Source: Slackia exigua ATCC 700122
Lineage (GTDB): Bacteria; Actinomycetota; Coriobacteriia; Coriobacteriales; Eggerthellaceae
DNA: 64,000 nucleotides
Reading direction: 5' to 3'
Assembly: GCF_000162875.1 (NCBI RefSeq)
Contig: NZ_GG700630.1
Coordinates: forward strand, 636,015-700,014
Positions within the stretch are counted from its first letter, which is position 1; each line of letters opens with the position of its first letter. This document shows positions 14,465-63,069 of the stretch, piece after piece. A program made the translations under genes and the position numbers. Under the pieces are notes generated by a model. That model worked only from the letters and a program-made list of their open reading frames with translations, was not told the origin of the DNA and ran no database searches.

Positions 14465-14514
14465 TACAAAACGGCAGCCAGCCGCAACCTTTACGAGAGT
14501 TGCAGCTGGCTGCC
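14465..14514 (-). terminator. Minus-strand terminator with no obvious gene upstream
   Basis: Arms GGCAGCCAGCCGCAAC (14473-14488) and GTTGCAGCTGGCTGCC (14499-14514) pair over 16 positions with one G-T wobble. On the minus strand the stem is followed by GTTTTGT. The nearest gene upstream on that strand already has its own terminator at 14819-14852, so this one implies another transcript starting in the AT-rich island. Confidence 0.65.
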
Positions 14515-14818
14515 ATATGAAAGGCCCTGTAGCTTTGCGTCGCCGCCTTTCGACGGGTTTGCCGAGTAATTGCGGATACTATACGCTATTCATGCTGTAC
14601 GTACAACGTTTTCATTAAAAGTATGCTTGAACGTACATTGGACTCGGCAAGCGGTCGATACGGGTATACGATACTAAAATCCAGGTAGATTACGTCTTTA
14701 TCGTACATGTACCATCTTATCGCGAGCAGTATGGAATGAATGCGACTCGATATGAATTCTCTCAGTATCAACCTACTTCCCTTATATGTATGTTTATTTA
14801 TATCATATAGGAACGAAA

Positions 14819-51052: not shown

Positions 51053-51463
51053 GGTCTTCTCTCTCCTCAGACACGCTTAATCCTTATGAGTATAGGCGCG
51101 AACCGCGGCTTTCGACCCTGCCAATATCGCCCGTTGACCGTGATCGGCGATTCGTTACCGAACCGTTATCGAATAGCGCATCGTCCGATGCGGCTCCGAT
51201 GCGCTTCCTCATGGGGCGCAGACCTCGGCCCAAGTCGTCCAGCACGCTGGGATGCCGGCATATCGCTGCAGCAACCCTTCATGCTCTGCGGCAGAGCCGT
51301 CCAGCGCTCTGGAACGACGAACGGCTCTGCCGCCGACCCCCGTTCCACGAAACCGTCGAAGTTTTCCATTGCGCAACCGACGATGCTCGCGCATAATGCG
51401 CCCCAGGCATTTTTCGTTGAAGCCTTGAGGATCCCTGCAGGGGGAAACCGAAGGTGGAGAAAA
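51053..51463. other. Divergent region with a 13-base inverted repeat, no gene
   Basis: 411 bases between the deacetylase gene and the riboswitch, without a credible gene. At 51288-51300 and 51321-51333 are perfect arms GCGGCAGAGCCGT / ACGGCTCTGCCGC; the 20-base loop contains a second small stem CCAG-CGCT-CTGG. The symporter promoter probably lies near 51370-51420. Confidence 0.55.
51288..51333. repeat. Strong nested hairpin upstream of the glycine riboswitch
   Basis: 13-base perfect outer stem with an inner four-base stem. No T tract on either side, so it is not a normal terminator. Its role is unknown. Confidence 0.55.
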
Positions 51464-51544
51464 CTCTGGAGAATCTCTTAAATGGGTGCCGAAGGTGCAA
51501 GGCAGGTTTTCGACCGGCCGAATCTCTCAGGCAAACGGACAGAG
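51464..51544 (+). promoter_or_regulatory. Glycine riboswitch, single aptamer
   Basis: The conserved parts of a glycine aptamer are present in order: P1 CTCTG (51464-51468) pairing with CAGAG (51540-51544), GGAGAATCTC, the core GTGCCGAAGGTGCAA (51486-51500) and the 3' core CTCTCAGGCAAACGGACAGAG (51524-51544 in part). Only one aptamer is clear; no second core is seen in the 100 bases to the start codon. It controls the AGCS symporter gene 98 bases downstream, a standard target, which points to glycine as a transported substrate. Confidence 0.88.
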
Positions 51545-51642
51545 GCGCCGCGAAGGAACTCATCTGCCGCGGCTTCGGTCAAGCTTTTCAGTACGGCCTT
51601 CTCTAGATCGTCAGTTCACGAGCAGAAGGAGGCCGCTCCCCT

Positions 51643-60327: not shown

Positions 60328-61221
60328 CTACCGGACCGACTGCGCGCCGGCGCAGACGACGGCGAGCGCGCCCGTGTAGGCGGGCGTGGCCTCGCCGACC
60401 GCACGCAGGAATTGGGCCCCGGCCGCACGCAGGGCGACGGCGACATCGGCGAGGCTGTCGGGATCGGGGTAGGGATTCCCTTCGATCGTACGTCCGAGCT
60501 TGCGCATGCGGCGTTCGGCCTCCGTCGGCTGGGCGACGTCGATCTGCACGAGAAGAGGCTGGGTGCAGACGCGCGCGAGCGTTGCGACGGCATCCGTCAA
60601 GGCGTCGATGCCGAGCGACGAGCGTATGCCGACGACGTCGGCGGCGGCCATGCATGAAGCGGCGTTTTCCAGAGGCGCCCCGTCGAACGTTCCGTCCGCA
60701 CCGAGCGTGACCGACGCGAGCACGGGCCGATCCGTCGCACGGCGCGCTCCTTCGATGGCGCAGGCCATATCGTGGACGGTGCGCATGCCGTCGAGCAGGA
60801 TAGCGTCGAAGGGAGCGCCGCCGAACGCCCTGACCGCGCCTTCGTATTGGGCGCGCGTGCGTTCGAGAGACGCTTCGTCAGATGGATCGAGCGGAAGGCC
60901 GCAAGGTCCGATAGCGCAGATGACGTGCTGAGGGGCAAGTCCTGTTGCGGCGGCGAGCGCGCTCGAAGCGATATCCGCGGCCGCATCTTCCATGCGGCGA
61001 TGGGCAAGGCGTGCGCGGCAGATTCCCTCGGTGTTCGTGACCAGGCATGCGGCGCCTGCGATCTGCTCCATGGACAGGAGATCGGACACGGTGTCGTCTT
61101 CGAAAAGGCTCATGAACTCCATGTCGGCGTCCACGTCCACCCCGCGCTCGGCCAGACGATAGTCGATCGGAGCGGAAAGGACCAGCATATCGCGATGGAA
61201 TCTGAACTCGATGTCTGCCAT
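60328..61221 (-). CDS. Homocysteine S-methyltransferase-like protein lacking zinc cysteines
   Basis: 297 residues, the size of the methionine synthase homocysteine domain. The TIM-barrel pattern is kept: AACLVTNTEGICRARLAHRRME, VICAIGPCGLPLDP (like xxGSIGPTG), FDAILLDGMRTVHDMACAIEGAR, RPVLASVTL and a final GAQFLRAVGEATPAY. In active enzymes zinc is held by one Cys in GLNC and a pair in GGCCG. Here the positions read GIRSS and RAVGE, so all three appear lost. The protein may therefore bind another ligand or use other chemistry. GAGGAGG lies before the ATG. First gene of an operon with an 83-residue protein and an MFS transporter. Confidence 0.75.
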   Translation of the reverse strand: MADIEFRFHRDMLVLSAPIDYRLAERGVDVDADMEFMSLFEDDTVSDLLSMEQIAGAACLVTNTEGICRARLAHRRMEDAAADIASSALAAATGLAPQHVICAIGPCGLPLDPSDEASLERTRAQYEGAVRAFGGAPFDAILLDGMRTVHDMACAIEGARRATDRPVLASVTLGADGTFDGAPLENAASCMAAADVVGIRSSLGIDALTDAVATLARVCTQPLLVQIDVAQPTEAERRMRKLGRTIEGNPYPDPDSLADVAVALRAAGAQFLRAVGEATPAYTGALAVVCAGAQSVR

Positions 61222-61419
61222 GCGGCCTCCTCTGTTGCACGTGCCGACGTCATATCGAATGCGTGCGGATGCAACGCAGGGTCTGGAACCGGTCGGGATT
61301 CGATTGTATCCCAGCCGTCCGGACGCGAGCGGCGGGACGCGTCTTCACTTCATGACGAAACCGCTTCCATGAGACGTCCACAGGCGGTTCATACGGTCTT
61401 GAAACCCGACGTTTATACT

Positions 61420-61560
61420 ACGTGCTGCAAGCGGGATTCCCTCCCTCCTTTTCAAATCCCTTTATCCCCTTGCCTGCTTTCCCAAGCAGAAGCGGCGGCA
61501 TGACCGCCGTACACCCCTCCCTTCGAGGCCCGACTCCCTATCGGGCCTCAACTTTTTTCT
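61420..61560 (+). ncRNA. Candidate small RNA ending in an orphan terminator
   Basis: No plus-strand gene precedes the strong plus-strand terminator at 61525-61558, as both flanking genes are on the minus strand. Upstream are TATACT (61414-61419, candidate -10), a pyrimidine-rich stretch with CTCCCTCCTTTT (61441-61452), and two hairpins: CTGCTT-TCCC-AAGCAG (61474-61489) and GGCGG-N5-CCGCC (61494-61508). CCTCCTTT equals the 3' end of 16S rRNA, so the RNA could pair with Shine-Dalgarno sequences. No good -35 is visible. Confidence 0.45.
61525..61558 (+). terminator. Rho-independent terminator on the plus strand
   Basis: GAGGCCCGA (61525-61533) and TCGGGCCTC (61541-61549) with a 7-base loop, then AACTTTTTTCT. 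The T tract shows plus-strand direction; the minus-strand LuxR gene ends 24 bases further on, so it may also serve that gene as an imperfect terminator. Confidence 0.8.
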
Positions 61561-61581
61561 AAGGAAGATTCATCTTAGAAA

Positions 61582-63069
61582 TCACTTTTCAGGCTGAGAT
61601 GCAGAAGTCGAGCCCGGTCGAAGCCTGTATTTCTGAACCATGTCTATGAGCTCCTGCTTGCCATGGGCGCCGCATTTCGCATAAATATGCCGTATGTGGG
61701 TTTTCACGGTGTTCGTAGAGACCACCAGCTCTTCGGCTATGTAAGACATGCTTCTTCCGGTAACGAACAGGCCGAGTATCTCCGTCTCGCGTTCGGTCAG
61801 GCCATACGCCCCTGCGAAGGCACGGATGCCGTCGTCGGCCCGATTCGCATTCGGCGCCGAGTCATCCGACTGCTCACCTTGCACCATCAACATCCACAGA
61901 CGCGACCCATATTCCGTAAATCCTAGAAGGGCGGCCACGGCCGCCAGGTTCATTCCCGTCAGAATCGCCATCCGAACCCCCGAAGACACGTCGAGAAGAG
62001 ATAGAGCCGCCCCGACGGAAGCGCCCGCAAGTATGCCTGCCTGCTCGGCAATCATGGCGATGCAGATAATTCTCCAGGGAGCATGCCTCGAGCTGCGCCC
62101 ATGCGCTGCGATCATGGTCCAGACAAGTATGTCGAAGCTGCAATACCCTGCGGCTATGGCAATACTGCCGAGCCTGTTCGCGTGCGGGGTGAAAACACCG
62201 ACGACCATCGCTGCAAGACCTACGATAAGCGCGAAGCTGCAAGCCTTGAACAGAAGATGCATTCTGTCGCGCAAAGGGCCCAGATACAAGGCAAGCACGA
62301 ACAGGGCCATGCACCCGCGCGTCACGACGGCATCGAATCCGCGGATGCTGAAAAAAACGTCGGCCGAAACGACGATCTGGGAATAATACATGATGCCGAA
62401 CGCCGCGCAGAATGCGCAGATGAGCATGAGAAGGCGGCTGTCGAAGCCATGGTCGGCCTTGGACCTTCCAGGGTTCTTAGGCACGATGATCCTGCACGTC
62501 GGGTCATCCCGTCGAGCTGCAAGCATGCGATACACGCCGTACGAAGCGATCGGCAGCAGGGAAAGCACGAATGCCGAAGCGAAAGGCTGCAAGAGCCCGA
62601 TAGCAAGATTGACGACCAGTCCTACAGACCAGGCAGACGAAATATGCAGCAAGGCCTTCCGATGCCCCTCTGCAATGCAAATTTCACCCCACGCTATAAC
62701 ATAACCGGAAAAACAGGCTCCCGTAAGCAAGGACGCGCATACGAGAAGCACGACGCTTCCGCCGCTCAGGAACGACACGAGACTTCCCGCCACTCCTCCC
62801 ACGCCCAGAAGAAACAGAAGCCTGTTGCCCCCTCCAACGAGAAAACCCGAGAAGCGAGAGCTGAGCGCGAACAAGCCGAGAATCAGGATGCTGCACGCGC
62901 ACACAGAAAGAAAGCTGAGCGCGAAAATTCCCGATCCGCCGTCTTCAACGAAGCTGTTCGTGAACGCGACGTGGTCCACCCAAGCCCAATAGAGACTTGC
63001 ACCCGATACGGCCAACGGAGATGCCGAACCGGTGAACGCCTTCTTGATGTCTGCGATGCGCGATTCCAC
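61582..63069 (-). CDS. LuxR-family regulator with 12-helix membrane domain, pair 3
   Basis: 495 residues from a GTG at 63069 with GGAGGCGAG upstream. The N-terminal about 410 residues form 12 hydrophobic helices, with a long polar loop near the middle (about 195-215). The C-terminal LuxR domain reads LTERETEILGLFVTGRS and STNTVKTHIRHIYAKCGAHGKQELI. Codon use is more AT-rich than in core genes. It is divergent from flavoprotein 3 across 284 bases. It should control that gene; the 12-base element of pairs 1 and 2 is not found in this region, so recognition may differ. Confidence 0.88.
   Translation of the reverse strand: MESRIADIKKAFTGSASPLAVSGASLYWAWVDHVAFTNSFVEDGGSGIFALSFLSVCACSILILGLFALSSRFSGFLVGGGNRLLFLLGVGGVAGSLVSFLSGGSVVLLVCASLLTGACFSGYVIAWGEICIAEGHRKALLHISSAWSVGLVVNLAIGLLQPFASAFVLSLLPIASYGVYRMLAARRDDPTCRIIVPKNPGRSKADHGFDSRLLMLICAFCAAFGIMYYSQIVVSADVFFSIRGFDAVVTRGCMALFVLALYLGPLRDRMHLLFKACSFALIVGLAAMVVGVFTPHANRLGSIAIAAGYCSFDILVWTMIAAHGRSSRHAPWRIICIAMIAEQAGILAGASVGAALSLLDVSSGVRMAILTGMNLAAVAALLGFTEYGSRLWMLMVQGEQSDDSAPNANRADDGIRAFAGAYGLTERETEILGLFVTGRSMSYIAEELVVSTNTVKTHIRHIYAKCGAHGKQELIDMVQKYRLRPGSTSASQPEK

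Follow-up and report, generated by a model that had tools for sequence, protein, structure and literature searches.

In Listeria monocytogenes, LhrC1-5 are described as multicopy RNAs under the control of the LisRK two-component system, with Hfq being dispensable for the control of lapB (PMC4132741). The csRNAs of streptococci, members of the CiaRH regulon, are described as related copies that carry anti-Shine-Dalgarno (anti-SD) and usually anti-AUG sequences in unpaired regions, and their promoters carry the direct repeat TTTAAG-N5-TTTAAG, with a period of 11 bp, ten bases upstream of the -10 element (PMC3091779). In NfeR1, a cuckoo or alpha-r14 RNA, the anti-SD motif is reported to be unpaired in each of three hairpins, to be functionally redundant and to act independently of Hfq (PMC10746234). 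Here, we analyzed a window of 64,000 nucleotides (the whole stretch of DNA under study) from Slackia exigua ATCC 700122, for which a preliminary description had proposed a small RNA with an anti-SD stretch.

The candidate lies in an intergenic interval (61222-61581) flanked by two minus-strand genes. One encodes a homocysteine S-methyltransferase family protein (60328-61221; PF02574), the divergent neighbour and conserved partner of the locus, and the other a LuxR-type regulator with a C-terminal GerE domain (61582-63069). On the plus strand, a -10 element, TATACT, is read at 61414-61419. It is preceded by a promoter block of direct repeats with an 11-bp period (61366-61404; CA at 61368, 61379 and 61390, GA at 61401), which occupies the -35 place, and this promoter was absent from the output of a sigma-70 consensus scan. 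A plus-strand RNA of approximately 133 nt (61426-61558) is predicted, its start from the -10 element and its end from the U tract. Hairpin 1 (61427-61473) has an enlarged pyrimidine loop (61438-61463) containing CCTCCTTT (61444-61451), which is bigger than in most members compared. It is followed by hairpin 2 (61474-61489; CTGCTT/AAGCAG stem and TCCC loop), hairpin 3 (61492-61510; a covarying stem with a loop that is not C-rich in the family), a single-stranded linker, ACACCCCTCCCTTC (61511-61524), and an intrinsic terminator (61525-61558) with CTCCCTA in its loop. The terminator stem is 9 bp (61525-61549) and is followed by AACTTTTTTC, with a run of six T at 61553-61558. When 61420-61560 was folded, -51.1 kcal/mol was obtained, compared to -30.8 ± 3.4 for shuffled sequences (z -6.0; 0 of 200 as good). 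GGCTGGATCACCTCCTTT, which we take to be the 3′ end of 16S rRNA, is present at two places in this genome.

The strong plus-strand terminator at a place with no plus-strand gene and the TATACT upstream of it were therefore correctly recognized in the preliminary description. Its pyrimidine tract with CCTCCTTT is also present, but what was called single-stranded is the enlarged loop of hairpin 1, and its two compact hairpins have become three plus the terminator. The exposed C-rich segments stand as well; however, the key motif had been placed in the 5′ tract, whereas the constant anti-SD element among 72 members is the linker.

When 61 genomes were searched at the DNA level, 8, including that of the window, gave matches, among them the first relatives; two loci from this search (L006 and L008) look like chance matches and were rejected. 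A covariance model (R1) was built from four of these relatives without the window's copy, as a search of the kind already suggested in the preliminary description. It scored 71.1 bits in the window and matched 85 of 138 Eggerthellaceae genomes (64 of the 92 of good quality), representing 28 of 48 genera. Forty stretches from R1 matches were combined with the window and three earlier loci into 44 sources, all picked for holding matches, and a total of 72 members was found in 44 of 44. A refined second model (R2), which includes the window's copy, matched the window at 61425-61559 (82.0 bits; E-value 4.7e-20) and 129 of 395 genomes of the order. By count of the list, 99 of these genomes belong to the Eggerthellaceae, with one to four matches listed per genome, and 30 to other families (17 in f5, two each in f6, f8 and f9, one in f2 and six in f4, where the matches are weak with E-values of 5e-5 to 8e-3). 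Provided that the order search held all 138 Eggerthellaceae genomes, 39 of the 138 are not among the R2 matches, two of them in the genus of the window. Three matches from f5 and f8 were fetched, and R2 aligned over its whole length in all three. Among 296 genomes sampled evenly across the phylum, R2 matches beyond the order were limited to three genomes and weak (E-values 0.001-0.007).

A known Rfam family was ruled out as the identity of the element, as no family in Rfam 15 reached its gathering threshold for it in the window and none matched in 10 loci (108 kb) from the 44 sources. The best sub-threshold match for 61380-61580 was ncS025 (24.5 of 46 bits). Elsewhere in the window, a glycine riboswitch aptamer (51456-51552, plus strand) and a c-di-GMP-I riboswitch aptamer (14498-14573, minus strand) were observed.

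The S-methyltransferase gene lies divergently upstream of the RNA in 35 of the 44 sources; in one it lies downstream with the same orientation, and in eight it was not found. Neighbour clusters were named from one representative each; a GalU-like cluster neighbours the RNA in 24 sources, in 21 of them downstream on the opposite strand, and cytochrome c biogenesis genes are nearby in 17. Adjacent copies are 77 bases to 7.5 kb apart and point in the same direction in 28 of 28 pairs. Based on the conserved S-methyltransferase and GalU-type neighbours and on the shared direction, the family appears to sit mostly at one ancestral place, where it would have multiplied in tandem, with some copies elsewhere.

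Covariation was scored on the 72 members. In their alignment, which was fitted to the model and thus favours structure, 95.4 % of cells are paired and both sides have changed in 29 of 32 pairs; doubly changed cells number 349, against 84 ± 10 in shuffles. The covariation score of 0.440 compares with 0.145 after shuffling and with no more than 0.069 when the partners were slid. In contrast to the other stems, which covary, that of hairpin 2 (CUGCUU/AAGCAG; 61474-61489 in the window) is nearly invariant in the family: of its six pairs, two are constant and none is doubly changed in more than two cells. Our comparison suggests that this stem may be recognised as sequence. Taken with the family matches and the unpaired linkers described below, the covariation supports the stand-alone small RNA gene with exposed anti-SD segments that had been proposed, and a real small-RNA gene family is almost certainly present.

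CCCTCC is found in 72 of 72 linkers and CCCC in 70, and the first CCC of the linker motif has a median unpaired probability of 1.0 in predicted folds. CCCC also occurs in the hairpin-1 loops of 67 members (G fraction 0.00 after rounding), the terminator loops of 59, the hairpin-2 loops of 30 and the hairpin-3 loops of 4; the C fractions of these loops are 0.64, 0.54, 0.39 and 0.29, respectively, and loop sequences across the family are CUCCCCU- or ACCCCUU-like. Compared to the loop motifs, that of the linker is longer, and it includes the CCTCC of the 16S anti-SD. Since CAT lies within three bases 5′ of CCCTCC in 45 of 72 linkers, the commonest linker, CATCATCCCCTCCTTGT, includes the complement of the whole initiation region, AAGGAGGGGATGATG. 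The linker of the window has no CAT and contains CCCCTCCCTT.

The reading that we favour, with a probability of roughly 0.72, is that of a trans-encoded regulatory RNA of approximately 133 nt acting by anti-SD pairing. As the promoter layout suggests, a response regulator of the OmpR/PhoB class would bind the 11-bp repeats and turn the gene on. The RNA, as the comparison of members shows, ends at the intrinsic terminator and folds as three hairpins plus the terminator hairpin, so that up to four C-rich segments (the loops of hairpins 1 and 2, the linker and the terminator loop) stay unpaired. These segments may then pair with the purine-rich SD region of selected mRNAs, by which translation would be blocked. 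The ideal mRNA complement of the C-rich motif would be AAGGAGGGG, and in those 45 members, which do not include the window's, AUG might be paired as well, by the CAU that immediately precedes the motif. The tandem copies seen in many relatives would increase the amount of RNA or share out the targets among themselves. Hfq was sought in 10 genomes and found in none, so the RNA would work independently of it. Promoter and RNA are laid out as in LhrC and the csRNAs, which we counted in favour of anti-SD pairing.

The several similar loop motifs per RNA would also fit a protein sponge, in which repeated C-rich loops titrate a protein that binds C-rich single strands, as a mirror image of CsrB/RsmZ, and the near-invariant hairpin-2 stem could be its protein site. 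However, neither a linker motif that outlasts the loop motifs and includes the anti-SD CCTCC nor the CAT in front of it would be needed for a sponge, and we consider it unlikely, if still worth keeping in mind.

It is very unlikely that the element is a plus-strand leader, an attenuator or the mRNA of a small protein. Mechanically called plus-strand frames do overlap the small RNA in the window, one of them (61422-61562; 46 codons) spanning it, and by the same mechanical count 13 of the 72 members have a frame of at least 30 codons. Against this, 50 of the 72 have no complete ORF of at least 20 codons, the GalU-type gene downstream is on the opposite strand in 21 of the 44 sources, and the stems covary.

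The element could also be read on the minus strand, as a 5′ leader, rich in GGA, of the S-methyltransferase gene downstream on that strand; the minus-strand fold beats shuffles as well (z -4.6). When G-U and A-C pairs were counted, G-U was in excess in outer hairpin 1 (20:0) and the terminator (7:0), which indicates the plus strand, whereas the other helices are uninformative (inner hairpin 1, a poorly aligned part, 13:31; hairpin 2, 3:4; hairpin 3, 10:7; all helices together, 53:42). The T run and the -10 element are also on the plus strand, and the further copies repeat the whole unit, neighbouring ones always in the same direction. The minus-strand reading was ruled out on outer hairpin 1 and the terminator and is barely credible. 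Finally, a chance terminator in pyrimidine-rich DNA with no gene is a virtually negligible option: terminator-like matches are common by chance (7 versus 4.5 expected in 5 kb) and on their own are weak evidence at this locus, but structure, promoter and locus are conserved in many genera and the covariation speaks against it.

In regard to the promoter, each of the 72 members is preceded by a -10 element of the form sought, TATA[ACG]T or TACAAT. With all 72 promoters kept and anchored on this element, CA recurs at -46, -35, -24 and -13 from its first base, that is, every 11 bases. Three promoters in which no box was seen by eye (L062:4919, L057:5702 and L058:4713) were left out of the promoter alignment; the other 69 copies aligned without gaps (consensus TTCACAAnACG..CACG..CATA..TTCAA) and were used, the window's included, for a sequence model of the block (R3). 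The lag-11 correlation of the profile was matched by 2 of 5000 column shuffles and that of lag 22 by 8 of 5000. When the best of lags 4-24 was taken in each shuffle, 184 of 5000 attained the lag-11 score, and thus the period is only suggestive unless the lag is fixed beforehand. In the window, R3 matched 61366-61419 (40.2 bits), the sole match there at E-values up to 10. Conservation beyond the terminator, on which the preliminary description had made its proposal depend, covers the RNA plus approximately 50 bp before the -10 element.

In 14 genomes, 29 R3 matches with E-values of 1.6e-6 or lower were located before these RNAs, mostly at promoters of the training set, and the remaining matches had E-values of at least 0.009. 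In two genomes (G016 and G064), R2 lists 2 and 3 copies and R3 finds one promoter each, so that some copies have no block or another one. Outside the family Eggerthellaceae, R3 found the block in part at one of the three loci fetched, the one at which the S-methyltransferase gene is present. Two copies (L057:5702-5826 and L058:4713-4835) keep the -10 element without the repeat block beside block-bearing copies, and are perhaps differently regulated paralogues.

Direct repeats with an 11-bp period approximately ten bases before the -10 element, as in OmpR-family promoters, are present here, with the above reservation on the lag. PF00486 matches number 4-14 per genome in 13 genomes, and naming the regulator by presence or absence was ruled out as there are too many OmpR-type proteins. 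We give even odds that an OmpR-type regulator drives most copies; the estimate had been slightly better than even until the copies in G016 and G064 for which no block was detected were taken into account.

An 11-bp repeat layout is also found in Pho boxes, and Pho control was considered for this reason. It was rejected, as no comparable box was found at eight loci with pst genes, the most evident targets of such control. Over these loci, each scanned to 1.5 kb on both sides of the match, the best scores ranged from -13.3 to 10.4, the latter at L131, and pieces of the window reached up to 3.3. TIGR02136 matches were obtained in 8 of 9 genomes, one of them above the curated cut-off, and none in the genome of the window; a further match in G135 (L135) was left out of the scan. 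A pst-type phosphate-binding gene was observed approximately 3-27 kb from an RNA copy in G135, G101, G110, G113, G014 and G127, and over 100 kb from one in G005 and G160.

Boxes resembling the promoter repeats of the small RNA were also observed between two genes which, from their translations, we take to be infA and rpmJ (L121:2515-2556, L122:2488-2529 and L123:2551-2592). They are weak R3 matches in three genomes of two genera (G113, G116 and G014) and score 16.6 to 26.3, in a slightly longer box than in the pst comparison. At the equivalent place, TGTG repeats were seen in L161 and L163. In 24 of 24 genomes compared (L143-L166), rpmJ is preceded at approximately 50-100 bases by a hairpin-like element such as CGCC-TGCGGCTG-GGCG. 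Its stem changes look compensatory by eye (CACC/GGTG, CGTC/GACG and CGGC/GCCG), and it is possibly a ribosomal-protein leader.

When candidate targets were sought in 8 genomes, AAGGAGGGG-N3-9-ATG was found at 75 sites, compared to 10 for the reversed pattern (11 versus 1 in the genome of the window). Since AAGGAGGGG is a Shine-Dalgarno variant anyway, this excess before ATG is no proof of targeting, and in 8 of the 75 cases the site is the complement of one of these RNAs. After these 8 and the 7 sites of G113 were left out, 60 sites were read, of which 51 open a frame of at least 50 codons; Shine-Dalgarno usage from mechanical ORFs was uninformative. One site gene recurs in three genera (L217, L230 and L255) and encodes a carrier that is nearest to YfcC below the cut-off; a DcuC domain was identified in both members that were scanned. 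Another site recurring in three genera (L221, L233 and L256) opens just five codons. Eight of the 11 sites in the genome of the window were scanned against Pfam, and their genes encode two FAD-dependent reductases, two ABC transporters, an EamA transporter, a nitrogenase-like protein, a ParA-like ATPase and one protein without a match. The sites listed have the right complement and are candidate targets; they are not evidence of regulation.

A further-reaching idea is a clade-wide translation brake, in which one dedicated response regulator would drive an array of Shine-Dalgarno-mimic RNAs competing with 16S rRNA for many mRNAs simultaneously. It builds on the narrow distribution of the box in 14 genomes, where nearly all occurrences precede these RNAs and weak ones lie between infA and rpmJ in three genomes. 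We consider it quite improbable; if true, it would tie the output of respiratory and transport genes to ribosome supply.

The anti-SD RNA that we propose was also compared with models of known RNAs. Rfam includes an LhrC model, and LhrC is not among the nine matches with E-values up to 5 for 61380-61580. CcsR1 (RF02791), which is presumably linked to the cuckoo or alpha-r14 RNAs, scored 11.2 bits for the window's element, the cut-off being 65.3. Yfr1 of cyanobacteria has a C-rich unpaired stretch between hairpins, as does the RNA described here, but the window's element scored 20.3 bits with its model (RF01116), under the cut-off of 38.

Eggerthellaceae inhabit the gut and are known to metabolize drugs and polyphenols. 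No paper on their small RNAs was among the matches listed in our literature searches, and none of the six taxon names sought occurs in the main text of a novel-RNA survey (PMC11109978). The preliminary description had called such RNAs hardly described in Coriobacteriia.

Like LhrC as described in PMC4132741, the RNA is multicopy and has several CU-rich motifs in a loop, a single strand and the terminator loop. It differs in phylum, in its three hairpins before the terminator, in its up to four C-rich segments and in the CCCCUCC of its linker. With the csRNAs as described in PMC3091779, it shares several related copies, an unpaired anti-SD and an 11-bp promoter repeat before the -10 element. 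The repeat here is approximately TTCAYA in up to four units rather than the CiaR box TTTAAG-N5-TTTAAG, so that this likeness is limited to the 11-bp period and position, and the csRNAs have two stem-loops. NfeR1, described as Hfq-independent (PMC10746234), likewise has anti-SD motifs in several unpaired regions. Unlike in the RNA found here, the motif of the cuckoo RNAs is CCUCCUCCC and their hosts are Alphaproteobacteria; that motif is not in each of the three hairpins here, hairpin 3 having CCCC in 4 of 72 members.

What is new, as far as comparative sequence analysis goes, is a family of structured small RNAs that matches no Rfam entry and resembles kinds of anti-SD RNA already known. With a defined structure, promoter and candidate targets, it would offer an entry to post-transcriptional control in a clade in which Hfq was found in none of the 10 genomes. 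It would also add a further case of unrelated phyla having multicopy C-rich anti-SD RNAs, apparently under two-component control. As analogues in function, LhrC, the csRNAs and the cuckoo RNAs come closest to how the small RNA would work.
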